Both the position numbers and the translations under genes were made by a program. A DNA stretch of 36,052 nt, taken from positions 1-36,052 of the forward strand of contig JAAVHC010000059.1 in NCBI GenBank assembly GCA_014799925.1. The letters run 5' to 3'. The stretch comes from Oscillibacter sp. (GTDB taxonomy: Bacteria > Bacillota > Clostridia > Oscillospirales > Oscillospiraceae). Positions 16,280-28,999 of this stretch are shown here, in pieces (within the stretch, counting starts at the first letter, position 1; every line of letters begins with the position of its first letter). The notes under the pieces were generated by a model. The model saw only the letters and a program-made list of their open reading frames with translations, was not told the DNA's origin and made no database searches.

Positions 16280-16660
16280 ATGGCGGACAGAAACACCGTG
16301 CAAAAGGAAATTATCCACCATACCCTGCGCAGGATGGGAAACCACCCGACCGCCGCCATGGTGTATGACGAAGTCCACCTGAGCCATCCAACCATCAGCC
16401 GCTCCACAGTCTACCGGGTTCTGGCCCGGATGGCGGAGGAGGGCAAGATCCTGCGCCTGGAGCTGGCCGGCTGCGACAGCCGCTATGACGGCGAGATGAA
16501 GCCCCACAGCCATGTCCGCTGCCGCTTGTGCGGCGCGGTGGAGGACCTTCCTCCCGTGCATGTGGAAAAGCCTGCCGGTGACCTGGGCTTCCTGCTGGAG
16601 GACTGCTCTGTGATCTACCGGGGCCTGTGCCCCGCCTGCCGGAAGCGGTCCGGACAATAA
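16280..16660 (+). CDS. Fur-family peroxide-type regulator (PerR-like)
   Basis: 126 residues. A winged-helix domain (about 1-70, with H-P-T-I-S-R-S-T-V-Y-R-V-L at 36-48 as recognition helix) is followed by the Fur dimerisation domain with H-S-H-V-R-C-R-L-C-G (76-85) and C-P-A-C (117-120). C81/C84/C117/C120 are the structural zinc site. The assignment to PerR rather than Fur or Zur rests on its place directly upstream of rubrerythrin, a classic peroxide-response target. The ATG at 16280 has AAGGAG at 16266-16271; a TTG directly before it is ignored. In PerR, Fe-catalysed oxidation of a His ligand lifts repression. Whether that chemistry holds here needs the ligand set (H33, H36, D70, H76, H78 are candidates). 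Confidence 0.85.
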   Translation: MADRNTVQKEIIHHTLRRMGNHPTAAMVYDEVHLSHPTISRSTVYRVLARMAEEGKILRLELAGCDSRYDGEMKPHSHVRCRLCGAVEDLPPVHVEKPAGDLGFLLEDCSVIYRGLCPACRKRSGQ

Positions 16661-16731: not shown

Positions 16732-17274
16732 ATGAAAAAGTGGGTTTGCCCTGTCTGCGGTTATGTTCATGAGGGGGAGACCGCCCCTGAGAAGTGCCCC
16801 CAGTGCGGCGTCGCCGGCTCCAAGTTCACCGAGCAGAAGGGTGAGATGACCTGGGCCGCCGAGCACGTGGTGGGCGTGGCCAAGGGCGTGGACGAGAAGA
16901 TCCTGGAGGGTCTGCGCGCCAACTTCGCCGGCGAGTGCACCGAGGTCGGCATGTATCTGGCGATGGCCCGTGTGGCCCATCGCGAGGGCTATCCCGAGAT
17001 CGGCCTGTACTGGGAGAAGGCCGCTTACGAAGAGGCCGAGCACGCCGCCAAGTTCGCCGAGCTGCTGGGCGAGGTCGTGACTGACAGCACCAAGAAGAAC
17101 CTGGAGATGCGCGTTGAGGCCGAGAACGGCGCCACCGCCGGCAAGATGGAGCTGGCCAAGATGGCCAAGGAGCAGGGTCTGGACGCCATCCATGACACCG
17201 TGCATGAGATGGCCCGCGACGAGGCCCGTCACGGCAAGGCTTTCAAGGGCCTGCTGGAGCGTTACTTCGGCTAA
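16732..17274 (+). CDS. rbr: Reverse-type rubrerythrin, chimeric host/element gene
   Basis: 180 residues: an N-terminal rubredoxin-like iron site (C6-x2-C9 and C22-x2-C25) followed by the four-helix di-iron domain (G-E-C-T-E at 67-71, E-E-A-E-H at 100-104, D-E-A-R-H at 163-167). The rubredoxin-first order is that of clostridial reverse rubrerythrins, which reduce hydrogen peroxide to water in anaerobes with NADH-derived electrons. The mobile element entered at codons 95-100: bases up to the core 17014-17030 are host DNA, and the rest, with the terminator behind it, arrived with the element. The protein is nonetheless complete because the element's 3' end encodes the same residues. AAAAGGAG (16717-16724) is the ribosome site. 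Confidence 0.93.
17014..17030 (+). repeat. Left attachment core (attL)
   Basis: GAGAAGGCCGCTTACGA, identical to 28739-28755; the bases on each side differ (17013 G against 28738 A, 17031 A against 28756 G). It encodes residues 95-100 of rubrerythrin. Strand exchange took place within it. Confidence 0.9.
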
Positions 17275-17305
17275 TTCAAAACCGCTGAAAATCAAGGGAT
17301 TTTCG

Positions 17306-17340
17306 AGGGGGAACGGGGAAGCCTGTTCCCCCTCTTTTTG
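17306..17340 (+). terminator. Terminator carried behind the element's rubrerythrin 3' end
   Basis: AGGGGGAAC (17306-17314) pairs with GTTCCCCCT (17325-17333), then CTTTTTG. It replaces the host terminator at 29017, which was separated from the gene by the insertion. Confidence 0.85.
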
Positions 17341-17368
17341 CGTCTTTTTAGCCCCGTTGTGGTAGTTT

Positions 17369-17516
17369 TTGTGGATAGATTCCTGCCGCCGCCACTGATA
17401 ATTTGCCACATGTGGATATTCAGTTTTTTGCCCTATAATCAAGCGTTTTCGCGCCTAATTAACGGATTTTCAGACAATTTTAGCAAGTTTTTAGAAGTTC
17501 CCGCGTCCTTGCCACA
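17369..17516. promoter_or_regulatory. Left-end arm-type integrase sites
   Basis: Repeats matching those at the right end: TTGTGGATAG (17369-17378), TTTGCCACA (17402-17410) directly joined to TGTGGATATTC (17411-17421), and TTGCCACA (17509-17516). They are the inverse or same words as those at 28589-28653 and are probable arm-binding sites for the tyrosine integrase in attP. The rest of the gene-free stretch 17341-17786 shows only a terminator at 17627 and a weak TATACT at 17712. Confidence 0.7.
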
Positions 17517-17626
17517 AGATACACGCTGATTTCTTTAATACTCAACGTCTTTTTACAAGTTTTAGAGCCGCCGAGCAAAAAAGTGAATGGAAATTTCTAA
17601 AAAATGCCGCTTGCCGCTGGATTTTT

Positions 17627-17655
17627 GCAGACTGTTTCATGGTCTGCTTTTTTCT
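17627..17655 (+). terminator. Small terminator-like hairpin
   Basis: GCAGAC (17627-17632) pairs with GTCTGC (17642-17647), followed by a TTTTTTCTTTTCTT tract. It would block transcription entering the element's gene block from the rubrerythrin side. Confidence 0.6.
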
Positions 17656-17786
17656 TTTCTTCATTATAGCACATGTCCTGGTTAAAGTACAAGTATTTTT
17701 TTGCCCCGTGCTATACTAAATCCAGAAAGAGCGAAAGACACAACCTCTTGAAAAACAAAATTCAAAATGAAAAGGAGCTTATCACC

Positions 17787-18161
17787 ATGAAGAAGAGCGG
17801 ATACACTGTTGACCATGTCCAGAATACCATCACCATCACTAAGGCTTTTGCTACACGCGCCGCCGATATTACCACGGAAGAATATAAGACATTCCTCCAA
17901 CTTCGTGCAGACTTGCCGGGGTACAAAATCCTGCGTAGAACAGCCGATATCAAAAAGGCAAAGGAAACCCACAAGGGCCTGTCTATCGAGTACATGGAGA
18001 AATGTATCAGCACCATCACCCACGGCGACAAGGACGCGCTGGACGCTTTTAAGGCGGTCAAGGAGTATTTCAAAGGCCAGCCCGCCTATTACGCAAAGGT
18101 AAAAGCGTGGTTCCTTAATAAATATAGCAACTACACCGAAATTGACCCCGCCGCTAAATAA
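17787..18161 (+). CDS. Unknown element protein A (paralogue of protein B)
   Basis: 124 residues, first gene of the element's left block, ATG seven to eight bases after AAAGGAG (17771-17777). I do not recognise the family. It shares a run of positions with the next gene: N-T-I-T-I-T-K-A-F-A near the N-terminus, an S/T-E-x-Y/C-K spacing, a P-G-Y/M-K/R-I-L/V segment, K-G-L-S/T-x-E/D-Y/R-M-E, F-K-A/T-V-K-E and a closing W-F-L/M-x-x-x-x-x-Y motif. So both come from one ancestor. No signal peptide, no membrane helix and no catalytic signature are visible. The two are separated by 44 bases and probably share a transcript. Confidence 0.75.
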   Translation: MKKSGYTVDHVQNTITITKAFATRAADITTEEYKTFLQLRADLPGYKILRRTADIKKAKETHKGLSIEYMEKCISTITHGDKDALDAFKAVKEYFKGQPAYYAKVKAWFLNKYSNYTEIDPAAK

Positions 18162-18205
18162 GACCGTCACTCAACAAATTCTATTAAAACATGGAGGTTA
18201 TCAAA

Positions 18206-18685
18206 ATGAAAGAGTACAAAATCAACTTCACCGCCAACACCATCACCATCAGCAAGAGCTTTGCCGATGCTGCCAGCGACCCAACTTCCGCCGAATGTGA
18301 AAAGCTGTCCAAGCTCCAAGCGGCTTACCCCGGCATGAGGATTGTCCACAAGACCCACCGCTCCCCCTCCAAGGCCAACGTGAATAAGGGCCTGACCTAT
18401 GACCGCATGGAGGGGTACATCAATTTGCATGAGAACGCCGCCGAGCTGCTTACTACGTTTAAGACAGTCAAGGAGATTGCCGCCAAACAGAAAAATCCTT
18501 ATCAGTTCACAAAGGGCTGGTTTATGCAGCAGTTCCCCGACTATGGCAAGCTCCCCAACATCAGCGACAACGGGAAAATTTTGTATGTCCTCCCCGTTGA
18601 CCCTCCCGCCGCCGAAAAGGACGGGGACGTAGAGAACAGCACCGCCGCCGAGCATATCGAATTTGCAAAGGTCGTTAATCAGTAA
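18206..18685 (+). CDS. Unknown element protein B (paralogue of protein A)
   Basis: 159 residues with ATG after a TGGAGG site (18190-18195). It aligns along its first 125 residues to protein A (ANTITISKSFADAASDPTSA and KGLTYDRMEGYI against their equivalents in A; FKTVKEI; KGWFMQQFPDY), then adds an acidic, Pro/Ala-rich tail of about 35 residues. Sequence has diverged strongly while the pattern of aromatic and basic positions is kept, so the duplication is old. Basic patches in the core would allow nucleic-acid binding, but that is only a guess. A related pair may travel with this class of element. Confidence 0.75.
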   Translation: MKEYKINFTANTITISKSFADAASDPTSAECEKLSKLQAAYPGMRIVHKTHRSPSKANVNKGLTYDRMEGYINLHENAAELLTTFKTVKEIAAKQKNPYQFTKGWFMQQFPDYGKLPNISDNGKILYVLPVDPPAAEKDGDVENSTAAEHIEFAKVVNQ

Positions 18686-18744
18686 CAAAAAAGCAATTAG
18701 CTTTTTGAAATACACTCTACAAAATTTGAAAAGGAGAAATGAGC

Positions 18745-18960
18745 ATGAACGATGAACGCCGCAACATGATTGACCTGCTGCTGTCCCACTACACGGAGGA
18801 CGAAGAAGCCGAGCGCGAACAGGAACGGGCCGAGTTGGAAAACATGTCCGATGAAGATTTGTATTATACCCTGGAATCAATCAGGTATGAGGCTGAACAG
18901 GAGGCCAGAAAGGATTATGAAGCGGACAGAATGGAAATCCTGGAAGAACGCGGCTGGTAA
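18745..18960 (+). CDS. Small highly acidic helical protein
   Basis: 71 residues, almost entirely Glu/Asp/Arg/Lys helix: MNDERRNMIDLLLSHYTEDE, then a long E-R-E-Q-E-R-A-E stretch and a Y-E-A-E-Q-E-A-R-K-D-Y-E-A-D coiled-coil-like end. Two ATGs (18739 and 18745) follow AAGGAG at 18731-18736; spacing of eight bases favours 18745. Such acidic small proteins in mobile elements can be DNA mimics or anti-restriction factors, but no family is recognised. Third gene of the left block, followed by a strong terminator. Confidence 0.7.
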   Translation: MNDERRNMIDLLLSHYTEDEEAEREQERAELENMSDEDLYYTLESIRYEAEQEARKDYEADRMEILEERGW

Positions 18961-18974
18961 AGGAATATGAACGT

Positions 18975-19009
18975 AAGAGGGGCGGCACGTTTGATGTGCC
19001 GCCCCTCTT
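18975..19009. terminator. Strong terminator between converging genes
   Basis: AAGAGGGGCGGCAC (18975-18988) pairs perfectly with 18996-19009 around GTTTGAT, followed by GCTTTT. It serves the left block and, in reverse, the lipoprotein gene. Confidence 0.85.
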
Positions 19010-19013
19010 GCTT

Positions 19014-19751
19014 TTATCCATTTTTTTCTATTTTGGCATTTTGAACCTCAAATAATATTTTTTCTCCATTGTATTCATGCACTCCACCCTCCAAAGGGTT
19101 AGTGCTTAAGCAATAAACATTCCCGCTAACGGCAATTCGCTGTTGTACTTCAAGCGTAGCCAAACTATCACCATCAAGATAGATATTGCAAAGAATATTA
19201 GAAGAATTATCCATGGAATCGACCATTGCGGTGCAATAATACGGTTTATCGCTACTTGTAGAGGCATATACAAGGGATAAAACAGTAGCTTCAATTTCAA
19301 AACTGTCACTCACAAGAGAGGCGGAAGTAACAAGGATTTGCCTACCCTCAATCGCCTCTATGGTTCCTTCAACAGTAACTCTTTGTCCCTTGCTTAACTC
19401 CATTAAATCATCTGTTGGAAGTTCCACTTTGAACACATAGTCTTGTGCAACAGCTCCCAAGATTTCTAAAATGCAAAAATCACTTTCCACGTTTCTGACA
19501 AAGGCAGAAATCTTGTAATTACCGCCAATATAGGTGCTTTTTGCTTTAAGTTCATTATCATTAAACGCAGATATAAAGCTACTATAACTAAAAGCAGTTG
19601 CATTACTCTCATTTCCGGGTTTATCGGTGCTCGTTGTGTCCCCGTTCCCGCCGCCGGGCGTGCTGTTGTCCCCTGTTCCTCCACTGCCGCCACAGGCCAC
19701 CAGAGAGAGGGCCAGAGCCGCCGCAAGCGTGAGTGCCAAAAGTCTTTTCAT
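19014..19751 (-). CDS. Lipoprotein with OB-fold (tRNA_anti-like) domains
   Basis: 245 residues. The signal peptide ends in a lipobox L-V-A-C with lipidated C20; a Gly/Ser/Thr/Asn linker (21-50) follows. The mature part has an OB-fold-like segment, Y-K-I-S-A-F-V-R-N-V-E ... V-T-V-E-G-T-I-E-A-I-E (about 80-145), and a second similar half (ICNIYLDGD ... R-I-A-V-S-G-N-V-Y), in the manner of the tRNA_anti-like lipoproteins common in Firmicutes. It would be anchored outside the membrane; ligand unknown. It is cargo of the element and the only gene in its left half read from the minus strand. Promoter at 19799-19828. Confidence 0.82.
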   Translation of the reverse strand: MKRLLALTLAAALALSLVACGGSGGTGDNSTPGGGNGDTTSTDKPGNESNATAFSYSSFISAFNDNELKAKSTYIGGNYKISAFVRNVESDFCILEILGAVAQDYVFKVELPTDDLMELSKGQRVTVEGTIEAIEGRQILVTSASLVSDSFEIEATVLSLVYASTSSDKPYYCTAMVDSMDNSSNILCNIYLDGDSLATLEVQQRIAVSGNVYCLSTNPLEGGVHEYNGEKILFEVQNAKIEKNG

Positions 19752-19798
19752 TCTTTGTTGCCTCCTGTAATACAGAGTGATAGTCTAAACGACATCTA

Positions 19799-19828
19799 AT
19801 TGTATTATACTTTGTGCCTCTTTGTCAA
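19799..19828 (-). promoter_or_regulatory. Promoter of the lipoprotein gene
   Basis: Read on the minus strand: TTGACA (19828-19823), an 18-base spacer and TACAAT (19804-19799). A TATAAT lies nearer but at a 13-base spacing. Confidence 0.6.
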
Positions 19829-19863
19829 GCTATAATTCATTACAGATTGAGAGGTGCAGCGAT

Positions 19864-20046
19864 ATGAAAAGTGAACCCTTGAAAATCAAGAGGCGCGGGG
19901 AGGACGGGAACAAGGTTATTACTGTTCGGATTAGAGAAGATACCCTTGACGCGCTGGACAAAATCGCAGCGGAAACAAACCGCTCACGCAACGAACTAAT
20001 CAACATTATTCTTAGTCATGGTGTGCAAAACCTGGAAATTGAGTAG
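19864..20046 (+). CDS. Ribbon-helix-helix (CopG/Arc-type) DNA-binding protein
   Basis: 60 residues. The second half has the ribbon-helix-helix layout: strand K-V-I-T-V-R-I-R, helix T-L-D-A-L-D-K-I-A-A-E, turn T-N-R-S-R-N, helix E-L-I-N-I-I-L-S-H-G-V. Such proteins are small repressors, antitoxins or plasmid copy-number controls. No toxin-like partner lies next to it. The ATG at 19864 follows a weak GAGAGGTG site (19850-19857). It is followed by a strong terminator, so it is monocistronic. A role in regulating the replication gene downstream is possible. Confidence 0.82.
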   Translation: MKSEPLKIKRRGEDGNKVITVRIREDTLDALDKIAAETNRSRNELINIILSHGVQNLEIE

Positions 20047-20090
20047 CCACAGGGCGGGGTAACCCGCCCTGTGGCTTTGCCTTTTTTGCA
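20046..20090 (+). terminator. Terminator after the RHH gene
   Basis: GCCACAGGGCGGG (20046-20058) pairs with CCCGCCCTGTGGC (20063-20075) around GTAA, followed by TTTGCCTTTTTT. Confidence 0.88.
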
Positions 20091-20448
20091 TGGGGTATAA
20101 CTTCCGCCGCGTCCGCCGTTTTCGGTCGTTTCCGCCGTGATCTTGTGTCGGGAGGGAAATCCGCCGAGAAAAGCAGCATTGAAAAGTCAAAATGAGATTT
20201 TCCCAAAACCATCCCCCCGGTGGGCTGCTGGCTGCTACCCTCTGACGAATAGGGGGTACACCGCTCGTCATTCAAAATTGAAAGTGCAGACACAAGATTG
20301 CCAGCCGCCGAGCCAAAAAAGAAAACAGGGCGAGAAGCAACATCTTCCGAGAAGCTGCTACGTCTTTTTGCGTGGCGGCAACGTGTTTTTATAAGAGTGA
20401 AAGAAAAAAGTGCGTAATCGTACTTATTTGTGTGAAAACTACCGCGAA

Positions 20449-20477
20449 TTGCGACAAAAAAATTTTTGTGATATAAT
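20449..20477 (+). promoter_or_regulatory. Promoter of the primase-like operon
   Basis: TTGCGA (20449-20454), a 17-base spacer containing an A7-T5 run, and TATAAT (20472-20477). The preceding 20091-20448 is gene-free; I see only scattered AT-rich and GC-rich words in it and no supported ORF. Confidence 0.72.
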
Positions 20478-20555
20478 ATTTATAGAAAGTGAGAGAGAGG
20501 TGAAAGCCCTTTGACTGTCACTTAAAAAACACATGGATGAAAGGAGGCGCTTCAT

Positions 20556-21797
20556 GTGCCGTTCAATGCTCTGACAAACCAAATGGAACCGGACTATGAG
20601 GACAAAATCTCCCTTTTGAGCGCAGAGGATTTCTTTGCCCTGTTCGAGAGCCTTGACGCTTGCCCTTATTGGGTGACAAGCAACGGCAAACGGTCAATTC
20701 AAATCCTTGGCCTGTGTCATTGTGGGAGCCATCACAGCGCACTATTTGACCCTACCACTCATAAAGTCCACTGCTTTGCAGATTGTGGCGGTGGGATGAT
20801 GTTGCACACATGGGTAATGCGGGCATTACATCTTCCCTATGCACAAGCCGCAAAAGATGCGATTGAGGATTGGATTGAGGGACATGGTATCGACCTTTCC
20901 GACTGTCAACCGCGAACAGGTGACGAATATGACTACATCGAAAAGCCATATGAGCCAACACACATTGAGCCTGTTCCTGGTATTCCACAAGAGATCATTG
21001 ACCGCCTGTATGCCCAATGGGATAAACGTGAGGAAACGCTTGCACGGCTTGTCTGGCACACAGAGGATGGAATTGACGTGGAACAGCTAAAGCGGTTTGA
21101 CGTGGCCTGTTGTCCCGCCATTCCGGGCAGTAGTCCGGGCATGGTCAAGAGAATGGGAACGATTATTTTGCCGCACCACAACGCGGACGGGCAGATTGTC
21201 GGCCTGTATGAGAGAAGTTTTGATTACACGCGCAGGGAGGCAAAAGATGTGTTCAAGCTAGATTTGCAAGATGTCGGTGACCGCAAATTTTGGTGGACTT
21301 TTCCGCGGGCAAAATATCTTCCTGTTTTGCGGCCTGAATGGGATAGTGATGCAAAACTGAACTGCTATTCATTTCCCAATTCCTGCAATCTCTACGGCTT
21401 GCACATGGCAAAAGACGCTATCCAGCAGACAGGGAAAGCCATTGTCTTTGAGGGGGCAAAAAGCGTCATGTTGGCCCATCAATACGGCTACCCCTTTTCC
21501 GTGGCAAGTCACACTTTCGGCGCACACGTCAACCACGTTTCCATGCTTATTGAGTACGGCGCAAAGGAGATAATTCTTGCCTTTGACCGCCAGTATGAGA
21601 ATACAGAGGACGATAATCTTAATTGGCATTTTTATGAGAAAAAGACAAGGGAACTTGCTGAAAAAGTGGGCCAATATGTAAAGGTGAGCCGCATTTTGGA
21701 CAAAGGCAATTTGCTCCAATACAAGGATGCACCCATTGACCAGGACAAGGATGTTTTTGAATGTTTATATTCAAATCGGGAGGTGCTGACGATGTGA
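20556..21797 (+). CDS. DnaG-like primase with CHC2 zinc finger and TOPRIM-type region
   Basis: 413 residues. An N-terminal zinc finger, C54-H-C56-x2-H59-H-S-A-L-F-D and V-H-C73-F-A-D-C77-G-G-G, matches the CHC2 finger of DnaG primases (with CxxxC rather than CxxC in the second half). The C-terminal part has TOPRIM-like KAIVFEGAKSVMLAHQYG with E299 and EIILAFDRQYE near 340-350. Such proteins make RNA primers for element replication. The start is GTG at 20556, eight bases after AAGGAGG (20541-20547). The stop overlaps the GTG start of the next gene. It implies the element can replicate, at least transiently as a circle. Confidence 0.85.
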   Translation: MPFNALTNQMEPDYEDKISLLSAEDFFALFESLDACPYWVTSNGKRSIQILGLCHCGSHHSALFDPTTHKVHCFADCGGGMMLHTWVMRALHLPYAQAAKDAIEDWIEGHGIDLSDCQPRTGDEYDYIEKPYEPTHIEPVPGIPQEIIDRLYAQWDKREETLARLVWHTEDGIDVEQLKRFDVACCPAIPGSSPGMVKRMGTIILPHHNADGQIVGLYERSFDYTRREAKDVFKLDLQDVGDRKFWWTFPRAKYLPVLRPEWDSDAKLNCYSFPNSCNLYGLHMAKDAIQQTGKAIVFEGAKSVMLAHQYGYPFSVASHTFGAHVNHVSMLIEYGAKEIILAFDRQYENTEDDNLNWHFYEKKTRELAEKVGQYVKVSRILDKGNLLQYKDAPIDQDKDVFECLYSNREVLTM

Positions 21798-22924
21798 GCA
21801 GATTTGAGGAAAAGGAAAGCGCGGCACCCGCTCCGCTCCCGCTCGAAAGAGCGGGGCGGGGAGCCGCCGAGGAACAATCAGCCGCCGAGCAATCATTTTT
21901 TCGTGGAAAGCCGATTGCATGGGTGACCGTTCCAACGGCGAAAACTGTTGTCACTGAAAATGCCTTTGGTGACAGCGAGGCCAGCGAGAGGCCGGGGCGG
22001 AAAAATCACTTCATTCTCTATGACGGCAATCAGTACAAACGGGAAGAATTTTATCAAATGGCGTTCCCGTAGGTCTACCGCAAATATCCGTACAAAGTGA
22101 TCTTTGCCACGGATGATATTTACAGGCTGGGCGGGAGCCAGCGGGCAAAACTGCAATATCACATTTTGGCCCAAAAGTTTCCGCTGGTCGAGGTAGCCGC
22201 CGAGGACAAAGAAGATTTAGAGGCGTTCGCCGCTCGATCTGAAACGGAGGCCGCGCAACTGTGGCTTGCGCGTATGCGCTGGCCCCAAGGCCACGAAAAA
22301 ATGGTGACATTCGGGCAAAACATTGGCGTAGAGGATAAGGCTAGCGGGGGACGGGTCAAGGGCCTTTGGTGCTACACGGCTGATATGGATGCTGTGAGAG
22401 CCGTTTACACAGGTTGCCCCATGACATGGGAACTGTGGGCCGCGCCCATCGTAGGTTATCTACAAGGCCGGAGAGATGCAAGAACCGCCGCCGCGTTGGA
22501 GATCATCCAAACGGTCATGCGCCTTTTGTACTATCAGAACGGCCTTTATCTGACTGTCCCCGGAGATGTGCGGCGGGCAATCGTCAAGTGGGTTTATCAA
22601 TATATGAAAGATGGAACCACGTCATTTCCCTTTGCCGGGGACATGGGGAACGATAGCCGCCGAGTTACTATTAACTTTGAGCGCGACACGTCCCTAAAGG
22701 ATAACCGCGTCATTCATGACAATATGGCAGAATATAACAGGGAGGCCAACGCAGAGAAAGCCGCCCGCCGAACAAAACAACGTTTTGAGGATTTGACCGG
22801 GGAGCGGTGGACAACTGCCGAACTCCACGCGCAAGGTTTCACTGATAGAAATATTAAGACGTTCTGTAAAGACGGCCTGATAAAAAGGCTGTATCAGGGC
22901 CACTATCAGAGAATTTCCAAGTGA
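21794..22924 (+). pseudogene. Replication-region gene interrupted by an in-frame TAG
   Basis: A 376-codon frame opening with GTG at 21794 (GGGAGG at 21778-21783; start overlaps the primase stop). One TAG at 22070-22072 (codon 93) breaks it, and the frame continues without any other stop to TGA at 22922-22924. The text across the break, YKREEFYQMAFP then VYRKYPYKVIFATDDIYRLG, reads as one protein. A CAG-to-TAG change is the simplest cause. No ribosome site precedes the next GTG (22097), so reinitiation is doubtful. The intact protein is unrecognised; it is basic at its end (R-F-E-D-L-T-G-E-R-W ... K-R-L-Y-Q-G-H-Y), probably helix-turn-helix-like, and lies between a primase and an origin-like palindrome, which suggests a replication initiator. 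Confidence 0.7.
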
Positions 22925-22928
22925 CTGC

Positions 22929-23004
22929 TGTGACTTTGCAAACGCTCCCGGAAGTTGGTAATAAGAGAATAAAACCAACTTCCGGGAGCGTGATGAAAGT
23001 CACA
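22929..23004. repeat. Nested long inverted repeat, origin-like
   Basis: An outer pair TGTGACTTT (22929-22937) with AAAGTCACA (22996-23004), a five-by-five internal bubble, then an inner perfect 17-bp pair 22943-22959 with 22974-22990 (CGCTCCCGGAAGTTGGT) and a 14-base AT-rich loop. No T-run follows, so it is not a plain terminator. It begins five bases after the probable replication gene and 48 bases before the next gene, as single-strand or rolling-circle origins or protein-bound cruciforms often do. Confidence 0.8.
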
Positions 23005-23051
23005 GGCGGAACTTGAAAATACACATTCAAAATAGAAAGGAGCCAAAAAAT

Positions 23052-23384
23052 ATGGCTGATATTACGATTAACTTTGATAATTTGATTGATAACATCGTTT
23101 TCGCATTTGAGATGGAAATGGGGACAATAGAAACCCGCCGAATAAAGGGGGAGATTGCGCGAAATACTCCACCAACAGCTATGGACGCACTCAACCGACA
23201 AACACGGCGCGGCCCATTCTATGATGAGGAAAGGAAAGTCTTGCGCAATGTTCTGCGGAAATTTTTGGGGAATGATAAACAGCTAAAAGAGTTGATACGC
23301 CCTGCCGCCGAACAAGCAATAAAAGAAGCGATTGAAAAATTCAAAAAAGGTCTGGGTGATCTGACAATCAATCTGGGTTTTTAA
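23052..23384 (+). CDS. Unknown small element protein, 110 aa
   Basis: 110 residues, ATG after AAAGGAG (23037-23043). The sequence begins MADITINFDNLIDNIVFAFE and ends in a helical, Lys/Glu-rich tail (EQAIKEAIEKFKKGLGDLTI). It is soluble, probably mostly helical, with a basic middle (R-R-I-K-G-E-I-A-R ... N-R-Q-T-R-R-G-P-F). No family recognised. It is read in the same direction as the primase gene but beyond the nested palindrome and ends at a strong terminator. Confidence 0.7.
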   Translation: MADITINFDNLIDNIVFAFEMEMGTIETRRIKGEIARNTPPTAMDALNRQTRRGPFYDEERKVLRNVLRKFLGNDKQLKELIRPAAEQAIKEAIEKFKKGLGDLTINLGF

Positions 23385-23394
23385 GGACAGGCTA

Positions 23395-23437
23395 CGGCGG
23401 GAGATGTAACAATCTCCCGCCGACTTCTTATTTTTTG
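23395..23437 (+). terminator. Terminator after the 110-residue gene
   Basis: CGGCGGGAGAT (23395-23405) pairs with ATCTCCCGCCG (23412-23422) around GTAACA, followed by ACTTCTTATTTTTTG. Confidence 0.88.
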
Positions 23438-23450
23438 TAGAAAGACGCTA

Positions 23451-23555
23451 CTAACTTGTAGAATCTTCTTTGTCCTTGTCGCTATCTTCTTTCTTTTCCC
23501 ATCCAAGAATTTCCTCCATGACAAGAGCAAGGGGCAAGTCTGTATCTGGAAACAT
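23451..23555 (-). CDS. Possible 34-residue acidic peptide
   Basis: ATG at 23555 follows an excellent GGAGG site (23563-23567) by seven bases and the frame runs MFPDTDLPLALVMEEILGWE then a charged D/K/E-rich tail to the stop at 23451. The frame stays open upstream to a GTG at 23636. It is small and could be chance; the ribosome site and the acidic, non-repetitive composition favour a real gene. The rest of 23556-23714 holds nothing else that I can support. Confidence 0.38.
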   Translation of the reverse strand: MFPDTDLPLALVMEEILGWEKKEDSDKDKEDSTS

Positions 23556-23714
23556 GTGCAATCCTCCATTTTGACAGGCCGCGCAGCGGCGGCGAAACTT
23601 GTTCAATAAAACAGATGGTTTTGTGAACACTTGCACAGCGGTGGAAACAGGGCAAATGCCCCCGGTATTAGGGCCGATTTTGTCCAGGAAAATAAAGCGG
23701 CCTTTTTGTGGACA

Positions 23715-23924
23715 CTACCCCTCTCTGACGTATTCCAGCAAATCCCCCGGCTGACAGTCCAGCAGTTCGCAAATTTTGGAAACATTCTGCAAAGAAATGT
23801 ATTTGCTTTCTCTTAGGGCTTGTATTACACCCTCTGACAGTAATTTATCTTTCCGTAGTGTGCTGGTATTGTACCCTGCCGCTTTCAGAGCGGCGATAAT
23901 GTCAATCTTGTATTTGATGCCCAT
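23715..23924 (-). CDS. Cro/C1-type repressor facing a three-operator array
   Basis: 69 residues, with a GGAGG site nine bases before the ATG at 23924. The fold is a Cro/C1-type HTH: IDIIAALKAAGYNTSTLRKD, L-L-S-E-G-V-I-Q-A-L-R-E-S-K-Y as recognition helix, L-Q-N-V-S-K-I-C-E-L-L-D-C-Q-P-G-D-L-L-E-Y as the closing helices. It is distantly like the chromosomal regulator at 8498. It is divergent from the gene at 24138, and the region between holds three spaced copies of a TTTACAC-N8-GTGTAAA operator and two promoters. It is probably the master switch controlling the element's right block (24138-26200), by autorepression and repression of that block. Confidence 0.87.
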   Translation of the reverse strand: MGIKYKIDIIAALKAAGYNTSTLRKDKLLSEGVIQALRESKYISLQNVSKICELLDCQPGDLLEYVREG

Positions 23925-23994
23925 TGTATTCCTCCAATCCGGGTGACCGCTGAAAAATTGCGGCCCTTCTCCATTGTCCTTATTGTAGCACAGG

Positions 23995-24087
23995 ATTACA
24001 CAGAAAACAATGTAAAATATCAACAAAAATTTACACAGAATTTTGTGTAAATTGCGAATTGATTTTACACAGCTAATAGTGTAAAAT
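23995..24087. promoter_or_regulatory. Operator array and divergent promoters
   Basis: Three palindromes with consensus TTTACAC-N8-GTGTAAA: O1 23995-24016 (ATTACAC/ATGTAAA), O2 24030-24051 (perfect, arms TTTACACA/TGTGTAAA) and O3 24064-24085 (perfect). Centres are 35 and 34 bases apart. On the minus strand TTGTTT, a 17-base spacer and TACAAT form the repressor promoter, whose -35 overlaps O1. On the plus strand TTGATT (24059-24064), a 17-base spacer and TAAAAT (24082-24087) form the promoter of the right block with O3 inside its spacer. Confidence 0.85.
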
Positions 24088-24137
24088 AATAATCAGTTAA
24101 GGGGAACACCCCAATAAAAATAAAGGAGATCAAAACA

Positions 24138-24416
24138 ATGAGTAGAAACGAACTGGAAGCCAAAATCGAGGCCCTGACCGAATGGGAAGCCGTGATCGAA
24201 GAAGCCAAAGCGGAAGCCGAAGCCCTGCGGGATGCAATCAAGGCCGAAATGCTGGAACGCGAAACCGAAGAACTGACCGCCGGGAAGTATATCGTCCGCT
24301 GGACTTCCATCATCTCAAACCGCTTTGATACCACGGCTTTTAAGAAGGTCATGCCGGACGTTTACAAGGCTTATACGAAAGCCGTTTCCAGCCGCCGCTT
24401 CTCCATCAGCGCATGA
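24138..24416 (+). CDS. Coiled-coil element protein, 92 aa
   Basis: 92 residues, ATG after AAAGGAG (24122-24128). The first 50 residues are a Glu/Ala/Lys coiled coil (MSRNELEAKIEALTEWEAVI, then A-E-A-E-A-L-R-D-A-I-K-A-E-M-L), followed by L-T-A-G-K-Y-I-V-R-W-T-S-I-I-S-N-R-F-D-T-T-A-F-K-K and a closing S-R-R-F-S-I-S-A. This layout is seen in small proteins of clostridial phages and integrative elements; some are described as Gam-like nuclease inhibitors, but I do not claim that activity here. It is the first gene behind the repressor-controlled promoter. Confidence 0.8.
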   Translation: MSRNELEAKIEALTEWEAVIEEAKAEAEALRDAIKAEMLERETEELTAGKYIVRWTSIISNRFDTTAFKKVMPDVYKAYTKAVSSRRFSISA

Positions 24417-24482
24417 AAAACGGCCCTTGCCTGACAGCCGACCAAAGCCCAGGCAAGAGGCCATACCTTCCACCGCTACAAC

Positions 24483-24517
24483 GGAGAGGGCAAGAAATAT
24501 TATAGCTTGCCCTCTCC
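24483..24517 (+). repeat. Hairpin between coiled-coil and SprT-like genes
   Basis: GGAGAGGGCAAG (24483-24494) pairs perfectly with CTTGCCCTCTCC (24506-24517) around an AT-rich 11-base loop. No T-run follows, so it may stabilise or attenuate the transcript rather than end it. Confidence 0.7.
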
Positions 24518-24549
24518 CAAAAATCAAGATATAAAGGAGATTTTCAGAA

Positions 24550-25197
24550 ATGAAACAGTTGACAAGCTATAATCGGGTAGCCGGGTATTTGAACAAAATG
24601 TTCGACATGCTGAACGCCGAATTTTTTGAGGGTACACTTTCAAGGCCCACCATCACCATTCAGTCCACGCCCCGCGCATACGGTCACTTCTCTTTGCGGG
24701 ACAACACATGGATTTCTGCCGTAGGCGATACGCACGAAATCAACATCGGCGCGGGAACGCTGGCGCGGCCCATCGAGGAAGTAGCTGCCACCCTCTTACA
24801 TGAAATGGTACACTATTTCAATTATGAGAACGGGGTACAGGATTGCAGCCGGGGCAACACATACCACAACAAACGGTTTAAGGCAGCAGCAGAGGCCCAC
24901 GGCCTGACCGTCACCCATAGCGACAAATACGGCTGGTCACATACCGCCCCCGGTGATGCCCTGTTAGATTTCATCCTTGAAAACGGTTTAACCGATATTC
25001 TGATTAACCGAAACGAATACGGCGGTTTTCAAGTGACAGGAACGGGAACGCACAGCGGCACAGGAACGCCCCCACCGCGCCGCCCCACCAGCACAAGGAA
25101 ATATATCTGCCCTTGCTGCGGAAACTCTGTGAGAGCCACGAAAACAGTCAATATCGCTTGTTTAGACTGTGACGTGCAAATGGTAGTTGCCGGGTAA
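24550..25197 (+). CDS. SprT-like zinc protein
   Basis: 215 residues. The SprT-like domain covers about 5-125: a helix with Y-L-N-K-M-F-D-M-L-N-A-E-F-F, the strand-turn L-S-R-P-T-I-T-I-Q-S-T, then L-L-H-E-M-V-H with ligands H84 and H88 and general base E85, and a third His in T-Y-H-N-K-R-F (H106). A Gly/Thr/Pro linker leads to a C-terminal zinc ribbon, C-P-C-C-G ... C-L-D-C. Cellular SprT/Spartan proteins degrade DNA-crosslinked proteins; element-borne ones probably help replication or entry, but the substrate is unknown. ATG after AAAGGAG (24533-24539). It is in the repressor-controlled block. Confidence 0.88.
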   Translation: MKQLTSYNRVAGYLNKMFDMLNAEFFEGTLSRPTITIQSTPRAYGHFSLRDNTWISAVGDTHEINIGAGTLARPIEEVAATLLHEMVHYFNYENGVQDCSRGNTYHNKRFKAAAEAHGLTVTHSDKYGWSHTAPGDALLDFILENGLTDILINRNEYGGFQVTGTGTHSGTGTPPPRRPTSTRKYICPCCGNSVRATKTVNIACLDCDVQMVVAG

Positions 25198-25205
25198 CAT
25201 ACAGA

Positions 25206-25227
25206 GGGCGGGGAGCAATCCCCGCCC
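25206..25227 (+). repeat. Intergenic hairpin
   Basis: GGGCGGGGA (25206-25214) pairs with TCCCCGCCC (25219-25227) around GCAA, nine bases after the SprT-like stop and before the next ribosome site. No T-run; similar hairpins follow the next two genes. Confidence 0.75.
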
Positions 25228-25249
25228 CCGCAAAGGGGGATATAAAGAA

Positions 25250-25552
25250 ATGACGATTTTAGAAAATTTGTGGTTCGGGAATATTGCCCCGGTTGATAGA
25301 AGTTTCACACGGGGGAGCGAAATCAGAGAACTATTAGAGGCCCTAACTGCCTATGAGGATATATTTACCGCCGAATTATCCACCGAGGGCCAACGCGCAT
25401 ATACCGAGTATGACAAGCTGATTAGTAGAATTTCTGAAATTTCAGAATGTGACGCTTTCGGAAAAGGCTTTCGGCTGGGGGCGCGGTTGATGCTGGAAAT
25501 ACTGACAGAGGAAAATACACAGATGCCGACTATCATTGACGGTATGAGCTAA
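25250..25552 (+). CDS. DUF6809-like protein
   Basis: 100 residues with the layout of DUF6809 proteins of Clostridia: M-T-I-L-E-N-L-W-F-G-N-I-A-P at the start, a helical middle rich in Glu (E-I-R-E-L-L-E-A-L ... L-S-T-E-G-Q-R-A-Y-T-E-Y), and a closing F-G-K-G-F-R-L-G-A-R-L-M-L-E-I. Function unknown; these genes recur in clostridial phages and integrative elements. The ribosome site is a weak AAAGGGGGAT (25233-25242). It sits between two hairpins in the block controlled by the Cro-like repressor. Confidence 0.75.
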   Translation: MTILENLWFGNIAPVDRSFTRGSEIRELLEALTAYEDIFTAELSTEGQRAYTEYDKLISRISEISECDAFGKGFRLGARLMLEILTEENTQMPTIIDGMS

Positions 25553-25559
25553 ACAGAAT

Positions 25560-25582
25560 GGGCGGGGGACAGTCCCCCGCCC
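25560..25582 (+). repeat. Intergenic hairpin before the resolvase gene
   Basis: GGGCGGGGGA (25560-25569) pairs with TCCCCCGCCC (25573-25582) around CAG, in the 48 bases between the two genes. Like the hairpin at 25206 it is directly followed by the next ribosome site. Confidence 0.75.
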
Positions 25583-25600
25583 CATGAAAGGGGATATATC

Positions 25601-26200
25601 ATGATTTACGGATATGCACGTTGTTCCACCAATGAGAGCAAACAGGACATAAACAGACAAGTCCGCGAATTGAAAGCGGCGGGAGCGGAACAGATATTTT
25701 TGGAGTACGAACACGGGGACAGCAAAATCAAGAGCCAACAACGGGCCATGCTGGAACAAGCCCAGGCCGGGGACAGCATTATCACGCTGGAAGTCCCCCG
25801 TTTGGCCCGCAGCACACAGCAACTTTGTGAGATCATCGACACGGTGAGCGCGAAACACCTACGATTGCAGATAATAGGCAGTATCACCCTTGATTGCCGC
25901 AACGGACAGGCCGACCCCATGAGCGAGGCATTTTTACAAATGGCTGGGGTATTCAGTCAGTTAGAACTTTCCATGATACGCGCCCGCGTCCGTTCTGGAA
26001 TGGCAAACGCAAAAGCCAAGGGGAAGCAGATCGGGAGGCCACAAACCACCGCCGAGGACATACCCCCTATTTTCTTCCGCCATTACCCCGCCTTTGCTGC
26101 TGGAAGTCTGAATGTCAGCGAGTTAGCGCGGGTGTGCAATTTGAGCCGCACAACAGTCTATAAGTATATCGGCATGATGAATGGGGGACGCTCCGCGTGA
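25601..26200 (+). CDS. Serine recombinase (resolvase/invertase family)
   Basis: 199 residues. The catalytic domain opens MIYGYARCSTNESKQDINRQ with nucleophile S9, has Y-E-H-G-D-S-K-I-K-S-Q-Q-R-A-M-L, then S-I-I-T-L-E-V-P-R-L-A-R-S with the catalytic Arg pair, and the E-helix segment Q-L-E-L-S-M-I-R-A-R-V-R-S-G-M-A-N-A. A C-terminal HTH (V-S-E-L-A-R-V-C-N-L-S-R-T-T-V-Y-K-Y) binds the crossover site. It is of small resolvase size, not the large integrase type. It may resolve element multimers or invert a segment; no res-like site was found. ATG after AAAGGGGATA (25587-25596). Confidence 0.92.
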   Translation: MIYGYARCSTNESKQDINRQVRELKAAGAEQIFLEYEHGDSKIKSQQRAMLEQAQAGDSIITLEVPRLARSTQQLCEIIDTVSAKHLRLQIIGSITLDCRNGQADPMSEAFLQMAGVFSQLELSMIRARVRSGMANAKAKGKQIGRPQTTAEDIPPIFFRHYPAFAAGSLNVSELARVCNLSRTTVYKYIGMMNGGRSA

Positions 26201-26213
26201 GCGTCCCCCATTC
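26179..26213 (+). repeat. Perfect 15-bp hairpin overlapping the resolvase stop
   Basis: GAATGGGGGACGCTC (26179-26193) pairs with 26199-26213 around CGCGT; the TGA lies at 26198-26200. It is the third GC-rich hairpin closing a gene in this block and lies two bases from the next promoter. Confidence 0.8.
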
Positions 26214-26214
26214 A

Positions 26215-26243
26215 TTGACATATCGGCGATTTGGGGGTATGAT
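26215..26243 (+). promoter_or_regulatory. Promoter of the WYL regulator gene
   Basis: TTGACA (26215-26220), a 17-base spacer and TATGAT (26238-26243): a near-consensus promoter separating this gene from the repressor-controlled block. Confidence 0.85.
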
Positions 26244-26279
26244 GTACCATATAAAGCACATGGAGAGGGAGGCCCCCGA

Positions 26280-27305
26280 ATGGCAAAATCAGAAAATCAA
26301 AAGGTGAAGACACTTTTTGTTGCAAAATTCTTTCTGGAAAATTCAGACGAAAATCACCCCGTCACAGCTGGAGACATTACCGACTATCTCAAAAACGAAT
26401 GTGGTATTGAATCAGAACGCCGCGCCATTTACCGTGATATTGCCGCCCTCCGGGATGTGTTCGGCATGGATATAGACGGGGGACAGGGCGGAAAATACCG
26501 CTTGTTATCCCGGCAATTTGAATTTGACGATTTGCGGCTGCTGGCGGAATGTGTCCACGCTGCAAAGTTTATTTCCGCCCCTAAAGCAAAAGACCTTGTT
26601 TCCACAATAGCGGAATTTTGCAGCAGCTACCAGGCCGAGGAATTACAAAGGGAAGTTTTTCTATGCGACAGGGTAAAGACCACCCGCAAGGATATTCTAT
26701 TGATTATCGGTATTATTCAATCCGCTATGTCTACCAGGGAGAATGGAAAACCCAAGCCCCCGCAGAAAATCAGCTTCAAATATTTGAAGTACACTCTACA
26801 AAATGGCAAAACCCAGGTGGAACGCCGCAGGGGAGCCGCTTACAAAGTCAGCCCCTATAAGCTGCTGATAAATGAGGGCAATTATTATCTGTTGGCCTAT
26901 GATGATAAAGCCCAGGATATGCGGACATATCGCATTGACCGTATGAAAGAAGTAAAAGCCCTGGACGAGCCGCGAGAGGGTGAAGAAGCCTTTGCAGCTA
27001 TTGACATGGAAACATATACCCGCCGCGTGTTCTCCATGTATGGAGGCCCGCAAAAGCGTGTCAGCGTCCGCTTTATCAATCCCCTATTGGATACCGCAAT
27101 AGAACGGTTTGGAACGGCCCCCGATGTATTTTATAGACCAGACGGGGAGCGGCATTTTGTAGTGACCGCCGATGTAGAGATCAGCGACCAATTCTTTTCA
27201 TGGGTATGCGGCTTTCGGAAAAAAGCAAAAATTATCAATCCCCCCGATGTAGTGGAGAATATGCAAAAGTTCTTGAAAGATATTTCCGACAGATACGAAA
27301 CTTGA
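26280..27305 (+). CDS. WYL-domain transcriptional regulator
   Basis: 341 residues. An N-terminal winged helix (about 8-80, with A-G-D-I-T-D-Y-L and S-E-R-R-A-I-Y-R-D-I-A-A-L-R as recognition helix), a helical linker, then a WYL domain (about 160-280: V-S-P-Y-K-L-L-I-N-E-G-N-Y-Y-L-L-A-Y with the aromatic motif, R-T-Y-R-I-D-R-M) and a C-terminal WCX-like extension. WYL regulators sense nucleotides or DNA damage and often govern mobile elements and defence loci. GGGAGG (26267-26272) precedes ATG 26280. Single gene with its own strong promoter, convergent with the integrase, suggesting an independent regulatory input to the element. Confidence 0.9.
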   Translation: MAKSENQKVKTLFVAKFFLENSDENHPVTAGDITDYLKNECGIESERRAIYRDIAALRDVFGMDIDGGQGGKYRLLSRQFEFDDLRLLAECVHAAKFISAPKAKDLVSTIAEFCSSYQAEELQREVFLCDRVKTTRKDILLIIGIIQSAMSTRENGKPKPPQKISFKYLKYTLQNGKTQVERRRGAAYKVSPYKLLINEGNYYLLAYDDKAQDMRTYRIDRMKEVKALDEPREGEEAFAAIDMETYTRRVFSMYGGPQKRVSVRFINPLLDTAIERFGTAPDVFYRPDGERHFVVTADVEISDQFFSWVCGFRKKAKIINPPDVVENMQKFLKDISDRYET

Positions 27306-27316
27306 TAGGAGATGCT

Positions 27317-27353
27317 GAAAGCAGATAGAAACTTGCCGTTTCTATCTGCTTTC
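27317..27353. terminator. Bidirectional terminator between WYL and integrase genes
   Basis: GAAAGCAGATAGAAAC (27317-27332) pairs perfectly with 27338-27353 around TTGCC, with T-rich sequence on both outer flanks. Confidence 0.88.
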
Positions 27354-27366
27354 TTGTAAAAAGTTC

Positions 27367-28575
27367 TTAAAGCATGTTCAAATTGCCTTGCAGGATATTG
27401 ACCCCCGACTTTGAAACGGCGATATAATACCGCTGTGTCACCTGGATATTCCCATGCCCCATCTGATTACACAGCAAATGCGTGGGGGTATTCATTTCCG
27501 CCATGAGTGTACCGTAAGTGTGCCGCAAGTGGTGATACTTGAAGTCAATATGAAACCGGGCCTTGATTTCCCGTGTGGGGTATTTCATGGAATTGACCGT
27601 CTGGATTTTCCCGTTAGGCAGACAGTTGACAAGTTCCGTTGAAAAAATCTGCTTGCCGCCCAAGTCCTCAATCAGCCTTTGATTCTGTTCCCGCAGCGCG
27701 GCAAATTGAATTTCATCCTCTGACCGCCGCCGCGCCAATTCTTGAAAATACACTTTCAGTTTGTCGCACATGTAGATCATTCGTCTGGCGTTGTGGGTTT
27801 TCAGCGGCACTAACTTGATAAGCCCATCCTGATATTGCATTTGACGGTCAATCAAAATTGTGCCATGCTCCACGTCTACATTCTCCCATTTCAGCCCGAA
27901 ACATTCATTGATACGCAGACCACAAAACCGCCCCAACAGGTACGCCGTTTCCGCATTTGTCCCCCGGAAATAATCATCCAGAATTACAAGTTCCTCTCGG
28001 CTGAACGCGACAATATCAATATCATCATCACTTTTCAGCTTTGGCATGTGGATTTTCGTGTCCTTATTGACGCACAGCTTATTATAGTTATCCACAGCCA
28101 AATAATTGCGGGAATAGGCTTGACCGAAAATCAGATAGAACATTTTCAAAAAACTTTCTACATAGCGATAAGACAGCCCCCGGTTATAGTAAAGTTCCGT
28201 CAAGTAGTCTACAACTTCCGCCGCGCTGATTTCGTCAATGTACCGCTTGCCAAAAGCGGCACAAAGGTGATTGTCCCACAGGCTTTCTTGCTTGCGAATG
28301 GTGTTATAGGCTTTGCCGCTCCGCCCCTTTTCGCAATACTCTTGATAGACCTCCGCCACCGTCTTTCTGACCGTGGGCTTTGGCCTCCGGGAATTTTGTT
28401 CCGCTTCAATGGCAGCTTGCCGCGCCTTGATTGCCTCCCGCTTTGTTTTGAAAGGTGCGCCAAATTCATCTTTTGTCTTTCGCGCCTCTTTCCGTTCGCC
28501 GTTCACCATCAATACATAGCGATAGCCCCAGCATTTGTTGGGCAGTTGATAAACGCCCGTGTCGTTCTTTGCCAC
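27367..28575 (-). CDS. int: Tyrosine site-specific integrase
   Basis: 402 residues. N-terminal arm-binding domain (1-60, Y-Q-L-P-N-K-C-W-G-Y-R-Y) and SAM-like core-binding domain (70-165), then the catalytic domain with R221 (G-L-R-I-N-E), K259 (P-L-K-T-H-N-A-R-R), H348-x2-R351 (Y-H-H-L-R-H-T-Y-G), H374 (M-G-H-G) and nucleophile Y383 or Y384 (Q-R-Y-Y). All five catalytic positions are present. The start is GTG at 28575 with GGAGGGG at 28581-28587. It lies 163 bases from the right core, the normal place for the integrase of such an element. The target is rubrerythrin codons 95-100. Confidence 0.95.
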   Translation of the reverse strand: MAKNDTGVYQLPNKCWGYRYVLMVNGERKEARKTKDEFGAPFKTKREAIKARQAAIEAEQNSRRPKPTVRKTVAEVYQEYCEKGRSGKAYNTIRKQESLWDNHLCAAFGKRYIDEISAAEVVDYLTELYYNRGLSYRYVESFLKMFYLIFGQAYSRNYLAVDNYNKLCVNKDTKIHMPKLKSDDDIDIVAFSREELVILDDYFRGTNAETAYLLGRFCGLRINECFGLKWENVDVEHGTILIDRQMQYQDGLIKLVPLKTHNARRMIYMCDKLKVYFQELARRRSEDEIQFAALREQNQRLIEDLGGKQIFSTELVNCLPNGKIQTVNSMKYPTREIKARFHIDFKYHHLRHTYGTLMAEMNTPTHLLCNQMGHGNIQVTQRYYIAVSKSGVNILQGNLNML

Positions 28576-28588
28576 TGTAACCCCTCCA

Positions 28589-28653
28589 TTGTGGATTTTT
28601 TTGTGGCAAAAAGCCGAATATCCACAATGCGAAAATTACCAGTTGTGGCAAAG
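28589..28653. promoter_or_regulatory. Right-end arm-type integrase sites
   Basis: TTGTGGAT (28589-28596), TTTGTGGCAAA (28600-28610), GAATATCCACA (28616-28626) and TTGTGGCAAAG (28643-28653). The last three are the inverse of left-end words at 17402-17421 and 17509-17516. They overlap the integrase promoter region, so integrase binding could also control its expression. Confidence 0.72.
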
Positions 28654-28699
28654 AAAAACGTAGTTTAACTGCCCTGGGACATGTGAGCAACCCGCGCCG

Positions 28700-28733
28700 A
28701 AACGTCAAACGCCGGGTACGGCGTTTGACGTTT
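28700..28733. repeat. 14-bp palindrome next to the right core
   Basis: AAACGTCAAACGCC (28700-28713) pairs perfectly with 28720-28733 around GGGTAC and ends five bases before attR. It may be an accessory site for recombination or an insulating terminator toward the stranded gene fragment. Confidence 0.75.
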
Positions 28734-28738
28734 TGGCA

Positions 28739-28755
28739 GAGAAGGCCGCTTACGA
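28739..28755 (+). repeat. Right attachment core (attR)
   Basis: The 17-base copy of the core at 17014-17030, marking the junction back into host DNA. Confidence 0.9.
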
Positions 28756-28999
28756 GGAGGCCGAGCACGCCGCCAAGTTCGCTGAGCTGCTGGGCGAGGT
28801 CGTCACCGACAGCACCAAGAAGAACCTGGAGATGCGCGTCGAGGCCGAGAACGGCGCTACCGCCGGCAAGATGGAGCTGGCGAAGATGGCTAAGGAGCAG
28901 GGTCTGGACGCTATCCATGACACCGTTCATGAAATGGCCCGCGATGAGGCCCGACACGGCAAGGCTTTCAAGGGCCTGCTGGAGCGGTACTTCGGCTAA
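28739..28999 (+). pseudogene. Stranded original 3' end of rubrerythrin
   Basis: Encodes residues 95-180 of rubrerythrin with a protein sequence identical to the intact gene, but lacks the rubredoxin domain and any ribosome site or promoter. Joined to the 5' part at 16732 it would restore one gene, so it is the host's own 3' end, displaced 11.7 kb by the insertion. It differs from the element's copy at 14 of the 244 bases beyond the core, all third-codon positions and all silent. The host terminator still follows it. Confidence 0.92.

Follow-up and report, generated by a model that had tools for sequence, protein, structure and literature searches.

Mobile elements that insert into a gene and make good the part they displace are well known. 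The e14 prophage of Escherichia coli displaces 163 bp of icd; it is inserted inside this protein-coding gene, supplies its 3' end and leaves a pseudo 3' copy at its other end (PMC6379469). Integrative and mobilizable elements (IMEs) commonly use the 3' ends of housekeeping genes, generally with repeats of 8-60 bp (PMC5704250), the dusA-, yicC- and trmE-specific islands constitute families that each have a single target gene in common, the frame being restored in the case of dusA (PMC8409611), and Tn1549 is a conjugative transposon (PMC5871717). Here we describe what is very probably an integrative element of this general kind in 36,052 nt of contig sequence from Oscillibacter sp. (this whole stretch of DNA being 'the window' in what follows). 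Like e14, it is located inside a protein-coding gene, in this case that of rubrerythrin, which serves the defence of these anaerobes against oxygen, with one 3' end completing the gene and a second one present at the far end of the element.

When compared with e14, however, which is a prophage, uses another gene and alters one residue by the exchange, the window contains a duplication of 261 bp that leaves the protein unchanged, and its element differs in integrase family, host group and gene content. In contrast to IMEs in general, the repeat is far longer, no relaxase was found among the proteins scanned, and the target is rubrerythrin, while the dusA islands differ in that they replace the 5' end and promoter of their target and have other integrases and hosts. 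The kind of element, i.e., one that completes the 3' end of its target, is well known, but the rubrerythrin target and the family are new. Searches of PMC full text (including the available parts of PMC5025042 and PMC10434189; subscription papers and preprints are outside this coverage) yielded no description of rubrerythrin as an integration target; an initial annotation, made from the sequence of the window, had regarded the gene as not a commonly described attachment site.

The rubrerythrin gene of the window and its second 3' end

The window belongs to a 2.97 Mb draft genome of 84 contigs (97.9% complete), in which a search at E 1e-3 or better yields two rubrerythrin matches only, namely the gene and a 3' fragment. 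The two share a direct repeat of 261 nt (95% identity; spacing 11,725 bp) which opens with a leftmost exact block of 17 nt, GAGAAGGCCGCTTACGA, at exactly the positions where a 17-base core had initially been annotated (Table 1). In the 244 nt past this block the copies differ at 14 positions, all of them third codon positions and all synonymous, and the same 180-residue rubrerythrin is encoded whichever 3' end, left or right, is used; the annotated claim of identical products and exclusively silent differences is thus reproduced. An in-frame repeat of this length is not chance. Direct repeats are present at both ends, with one of them completing the target gene, as is characteristic of 3'-end-restoring integrative elements, and this supports the earlier statement that element-side DNA completes the left gene. 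The G+C content is 47.7% in the element, 60.0% in the left flank and 53.6% in the right flank, and the start of a tyrosine integrase gene is located 163 bases from the right junction.

We are confident that these features reflect a small integrative element, the tyrosine integrase of which mediates recombination between a circular form and an attachment site within rubrerythrin. The element would bear, next to its own site, the remainder of the rubrerythrin coding sequence followed by a terminator; a terminator-like hairpin 3' of rubrerythrin is present here and in about ten other element-bearing genomes. Integration would then exchange one 3' end for an equivalent one, leaving the left gene intact and stranding the former 3' end on the right, by the integrase, and excision would restore the original gene. 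What we infer in this model is that the intermediate is circular, where exactly the strands are exchanged and how the element is transferred. Rubrerythrin terminators of the same type are also found at 8 loci of 7 genomes in which the window integrase has no match, which implies that the terminators following the right fragments of loci L018 and L025 are at least partly native; a tandem insertion as their source was rejected.

Both configurations of the gene are open. In all 44 pairs of ends compared, the resident gene is intact (scanned to its stop) and the rejoined host gene is open to codon 170 or beyond, 'open' meaning that no stop occurs before codon 170; four right ends (L043, L055, L057 and L102) lack a terminal stop in the register used, and L057 exhibits one in-frame stop. 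For 21 of the pairs the left gene was obtained by searching the genome separately. In 11 of these 21, contig labels assign it to a contig other than that of the integrase or do not allow its placement there, and the full-length gene found in the genome was chosen as the partner. The ratio of nonsynonymous to synonymous changes (dN/dS) between the two ends, pooled over 43 pairs (L011, which is among the 44, being left out due to an indel), is 0.084, i.e., purifying selection acts on the exchanged segment. Selection that keeps rubrerythrin working had been proposed from the window; the silent divergence does not exceed that of ordinary orthologues: the window tail differs from the gene of congener G004 by 12 silent and no replacement changes, so that exclusively silent divergence is what is ordinarily found between sister species.

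Association of the integrase with rubrerythrin

Two samples were used for assessing how widely the arrangement is conserved. Among 400 genomes spread evenly over the family, the window's own included, 13 carry the integrase at E 1e-60 or better, and in 13 of 13 (own genome included) a rubrerythrin 3' fragment is located just upstream of the integrase start. A second collection, scanned by pattern and having at least 5 genomes in common with the first, comprises 61 loci: the fragment is present in 49 (not counting L066, in which the match falls outside the gene) and absent in 7, a contig edge cuts 3, and the integrase start is missing in 2. Gene and integrase are on one stretch in 31 loci, 30 of which share the order gene, element, integrase with a spacing of 2.4-12.9 kb, and a recognizable fragment is present in 27 of these 30. 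The exception is genome G386 with an inverted fragment; its locus (L198, 3400-15000) contains an intact rubrerythrin, the inverted 3' fragment by a partly matching integrase, and a further 3' fragment (codons 162-180), that is, a nested or inverted arrangement. At five other, distant recombinase places in the own genome, no rubrerythrin is found within the available flank (up to 1.5 kb). The link in 13 of 13 carriers and 49 of 61 loci thus argues for a family of small (2.4-12.9 kb) integrative elements having rubrerythrin as their attachment gene. The initial expectation that the same integrase is always found beside rubrerythrin holds for all 13 carriers of the first sample and for those 49 loci, whereas in 7 loci no fragment is recognizable where one is expected.

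The integrase itself exhibits the Arg, His-x-x-Arg, His and Tyr residues of tyrosine recombinases, with R220, H347, R350, H373, Y382 and Y383 being invariant in 53 sequences. The nearest solved structures, 6emz and 6en0, are distant (E 1.3e-4 to 3.6e-4) and represent what we take to be the Tn1549 integrase; Tn1549 has a low target specificity, unlike the integrase family of the window, which is tied to one gene. The spread of the family is patchy (13/400 genomes in the family; 4/86 in one genus), and integrase distance is hardly correlated with host distance (r 0.18). Three of the seven loci devoid of a fragment at the expected place (L061, L064 and L065) have a reverse layout, with a relative of the integrase directly 3' of intact rubrerythrin and, in L061 and L065, a fragment at the far end. 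Single loci show further irregularities: the integrase gene of G097 (contig C6) is in two parts (101607-102119 and 139150-139866) separated by about 37 kb, as would result from a later insertion, the integrase match of L057 (10001-12714) is broken in two with an open reading frame (ORF) of 406 residues in between, and in G437, the genome of L051, rubrerythrin is found as oddly ordered pieces (codons 1-64 and 37-180) on contigs C143, C9 and C61.

Relatives with empty sites have an unsplit gene, and full-length rubrerythrin is present in 15 of 23 genomes of the genus (window's genome and G004 excluded). In a second genus, with integrase in 4 of 86 genomes, 61 genomes were searched at a cut-off that conceals short fragments of late-site elements; two of them, the carrier G464 and G274 (without an integrase match), have a 3' piece alongside a complete or nearly complete gene. 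Particularly informative is the sister element of G004 (L009), whose integrase is 92% identical to that of the window: its right fragment continues into a small gene which in element-free G003 is the one located 3' of rubrerythrin (93% over 334 bp), i.e., the right fragment is the native continuation of the host locus in G004. The earlier claim that the host's 3' end is stranded on the right is hence established for the sister element, but not for the window, whose flank is unmatched beside rubrerythrin in the loci of congeners that were compared.

Other observations at congener loci are as follows. A small ORF of 109 residues (MKIRIxKDIVEI...) is located 3' of rubrerythrin in 7 of the 11 congener loci listed, i.e., G003 (L111), G024 (L112), G002 (L120), G006 (L114), G008 (L122), G010 (L116) and G017 (L125), and also begins there in G009, G011 and G012; a search of the own genome, run without a positive control, did not detect it. 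G005 (L081, 44-92), a genome without an integrase match, repeats 49 nt of the rubrerythrin 3' end some 200 bp beyond the gene, perhaps as the scar of a late-site insertion. In G020 (L117, 3837-3890, minus strand), rubrerythrin codons 162-179 are followed by sequence 83% like the left end of the window element, which represents a remnant or another element.

Origin of the two ends and position of the exchange

Several observations weigh against the proposed exchange of an element-borne for a resident 3' end. In 7 of 61 loci no recognizable fragment is present where one is expected, and short extra 3' pieces in G005, G018, G020 and G274 (all four with no integrase match, or none seen) imply that the picture of empty sites, which were not expected to carry two 3' ends, is not perfectly clean even with the full-length gene in 15 of 23 genomes. 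Next to rubrerythrin, none of the congener loci compared contains a match to the right flank of the window, two genes of which are located elsewhere or missing in congeners, so that nativeness of the right fragment in the window follows from recombination logic; furthermore, 38 of 67 right-flank loci (duplicates included, the window among them) matched no downstream region, mostly because close relatives are lacking. Empty sites had been predicted to resemble the right fragment, but polarization of the 14 sites places all 11 congeners compared nearer to the left tail. Distances scaled by local rates for 10 congeners (host 5' part 0.838, left tail 0.876, right fragment 1.057) indicate that the left tail fits the host 5' part better than the right fragment does, and over 35 pairs 913 and 866 of 1000 label swaps reach the statistics observed, which gives no indication of left tails being element-like or right fragments host-like.

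Other comparisons do not point in one direction. In a tree with 10 congeners both window ends group with G004, and the G+C content at third codon positions (GC3) does not differ between left and right ends (n 42). The left tails of L014 and L015 are nearly the same from about codon 120 onwards (4 differences in 183 nt versus 44 in 360 before), unlike their right fragments (18 differences in 150), which is as predicted for an element-borne tail; L012 and L110 exhibit the reverse (26 differences left, 13 right). Per-segment distances for six targets suggest a foreign left tail for G303 and G004 and a foreign right fragment strongly for G464 and weakly for the window, with G310 and G231 being undecisive. 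A foreign origin of the left tail was thus pursued by polarized sites, scaled distances and trees, label swaps, GC3, pairwise profiles and segment distances without consistent support, and the annotated origin of the tail from another host lineage is not borne out. Probably, one of the two window ends comes from another strain or species.

The left limit of right-fragment similarity varies among relatives (codons 64, 88-97 including the window, 123, 130, ~141 and 152-163), and is located at codons 152-163 for 33 of 47 labelled integrases. This majority is what one would expect if the exchange occurred near codon 160 and the right end of the element had captured extra rubrerythrin (codons 95-160), in which case the first part of the right fragment would derive from the element and the left gene mostly from the host. 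The host-like left tail and odd right fragment of the window are consistent with such a late exchange, and so are the right fragments of the sister elements L013 and L014, which are identical for 60 nt past the later boundary and thereby imply that a similarity limit is not necessarily the exchange point. G464 likewise behaves as predicted, since at codons 100-158 its left gene is near to congeners (0.128-0.160) and its right fragment far (0.210-0.312) while both are alike at codons 162-180 (0.142 and 0.162), with gene and fragment being on different contigs of a metagenome-assembled genome. The opposite is observed at codons 141-158 of G303 and G004, where the left gene is further from congeners than the right fragment (0.198 versus 0.130 and 0.204 versus 0.127, respectively). 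Also at odds with a late exchange are the common boundary of the window, L010, L025 and L105 at codons 91-97 in spite of two different junction-side sequence types, the boundary of L011, which fits at codon 88 (albeit only versus a near reference), and the nearly identical left tails of L014 and L015, in contrast to their right fragments. We regard capture of extra rubrerythrin as unlikely.

An unrelated duplication leftover or assembly artefact beside an unrelated integrase might be suspected, since the genome is a draft of 84 contigs and the right flank of the window lacks synteny with those loci of congeners to which it was compared. The arrangement recurs, however, in dozens of independent assemblies, including near-complete G310 (2 contigs) and G386 (1 contig, with the inverted fragment), and this recurrence refutes such an explanation, to which we assign hardly any weight. 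The element might instead be of phage nature (a prophage or a satellite of a phage) and not an autonomous or mobilizable island, and a primase-like gene, a SprT-like gene and PHROG matches would agree with that. Yet 50,697 phage records contain no match to the integrase (at E 1e-30) and, by peptide patterns, IMG/VR contains none either, and no structural or packaging genes (capsid, terminase) or lysis genes are present among the element proteins scanned, some small ORFs being outside the scan; a phage nature is thus quite improbable. With the same scope, mating-pair formation genes typical of integrative and conjugative elements were not found; the integrase has no match in plasmid records either (at E 1e-30), and no relaxase was detected among the window proteins scanned or in 20 large cargo proteins of relatives, except for a Rep_trans match under the cut-off in L043.

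Returning to a small island with its attachment site inside rubrerythrin, we note that the 17 nt represent only the leftmost exact block, and that strand exchange could take place in any identical block further right. Best supported are the positions near codons 95, 141 and 160, each of which is found repeatedly, together with differing integrase-side ends. The codon 130 boundary has independent support from L019 alone: the integrase-side end of G004 is like that of L025 up to a palindrome and then exhibits about 107 extra bases with a promoter-like TTGACT...TATAAT beside the fragment, and its boundary near codon 130 may be due to rearrangement. On a quick integrase tree with several weak forks, at least 8 changes of boundary are needed, and L013 (limit at codon 64) and L014 (codon 90) have close integrases (0.065 changes/site on the tree) and nearly the same integrase-side end. 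This suggests that the integrase family may have moved its site within one gene. That the crossover moved repeatedly along rubrerythrin (~95, 141 and 155-163; perhaps also 64, 90, 123 and 130), with the matching coding tail being carried each time, is a tentative proposal which we consider slightly less probable than its opposite. A GAGA-like core motif was rejected as a general rule: RAGA is found near 11 of 13 boundaries before codon 150 (5.3 expected), but near 10 of 30 later ones (10.8 expected).

Gene content, regulation and implications

Across 30 elements compared, resolvase (22/30) and WYL regulator (16/30) recur while the other genes are variable (Table 1); the presence of the integrase in 30 of 30 is a result of the selection criterion. 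A hairpin adjoins the right junction of the window element and of many of its relatives, and such junction-adjoining hairpins have z < -2 in 13 of 55 loci versus 0 of 52 for the 50 nt before the hairpin. One hairpin type, GCCGAACGGC...GCCGTTTGGCT, is common to L012, L013, L014, L015, L018, L024 and L110, the integrase-side sequences of which are otherwise unlike. Defence functions as cargo were considered and rejected, since PADLOC applied to 10 window proteins and 10 cargo proteins of relatives yielded mostly weak or partial matches and no complete system.

Table 1. Positions of the rubrerythrin gene, its second 3' end and other features in the window
Feature	Position	Strand	Evidence or remark
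Fur-family regulator (PerR-like by position), host	16277..16660	+	Pfam FUR 2.1e-19
Intact rubrerythrin	16732..17274	+	Host 5' part 16732-17013 plus left tail; Pfam Rubrerythrin 6.3e-14, RUBY_RBDX 2.2e-14
17-nt leading exact block, left copy	17014..17030	+	
Left tail, codons 95 to stop, element side of junction	17014..17274	+	Repeat; 14 silent differences versus right copy
Intrinsic terminator, 13 pairs and T run	17305..17334	+	Directly 3' of completed rubrerythrin
Small ORF, family often tandem-paired in these elements	17793..18161	+	Cluster 2, 16/30 elements
Second ORF of the same family (tandem pair)	18206..18685	+	Cluster 2
tRNA_anti-like domain protein, lipoprotein-like start (judged by eye), cargo	19014..19751	-	Pfam 1.4e-6
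Arc/CopG-like DNA-binding protein	19822..20046	+	PHROG matches
DNA primase-like protein	20556..21797	+	phrog_47 2.8e-17; dnaG 1.3e-7, under the model's cut-off
Conserved element protein	22097..22924	+	Cluster 10, 5/30 elements
SprT-like metalloprotease-like protein	24550..25197	+	Pfam 7e-9; cluster 7, 7/30 elements
Serine resolvase	25601..26200	+	Pfam Resolvase 1.2e-27; cluster 1, 22/30 elements
WYL-domain regulator	26181..27305	+	PADLOC WYL model 1.1e-26; cluster 3, 16/30 elements
Tyrosine integrase	27367..28575	-	Pfam Phage_integrase 1.1e-13
Hairpin, 19-bp arms	28696..28737	.	Inverted repeat; z -7.0; ends one base short of right junction
17-nt leading exact block, right copy	28739..28755	+	
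Right 3' fragment of rubrerythrin	28739..28999	+	Displaced host end by recombination logic; native continuation shown only for G004 sister element

The initial annotation had also linked entry of the element with the PerR regulon. Of 15 congener loci examined, 14, almost all element-free, have a gene of the Fur family in front of rubrerythrin, and being present with or without the element this gene is uninformative about the latter; moreover, the strong terminator between rubrerythrin and the first ORF of the element argues against read-through. The proposed tie is hence unsupported.

The findings define a family of small islands in Oscillospiraceae, Butyricicoccaceae and Lachnospiraceae by one diagnostic locus that can be scanned for in any genome. 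If the proposed model is true, the 3' part of a conserved stress gene swaps between strains by site-specific recombination, and rubrerythrin-based trees or strain markers may then be mosaic. The differing boundaries appear to be the part most worth pursuing, as they provide natural pairs of closely related integrases (that of the window with that of G004, at 92% identity; that of L013 with that of L014) for studying how an attachment site changes. If retargeting within one gene, and not between genes, indeed occurred, it would be the carried gene tail, and not the integrase alone, that sets which sites are tolerated.

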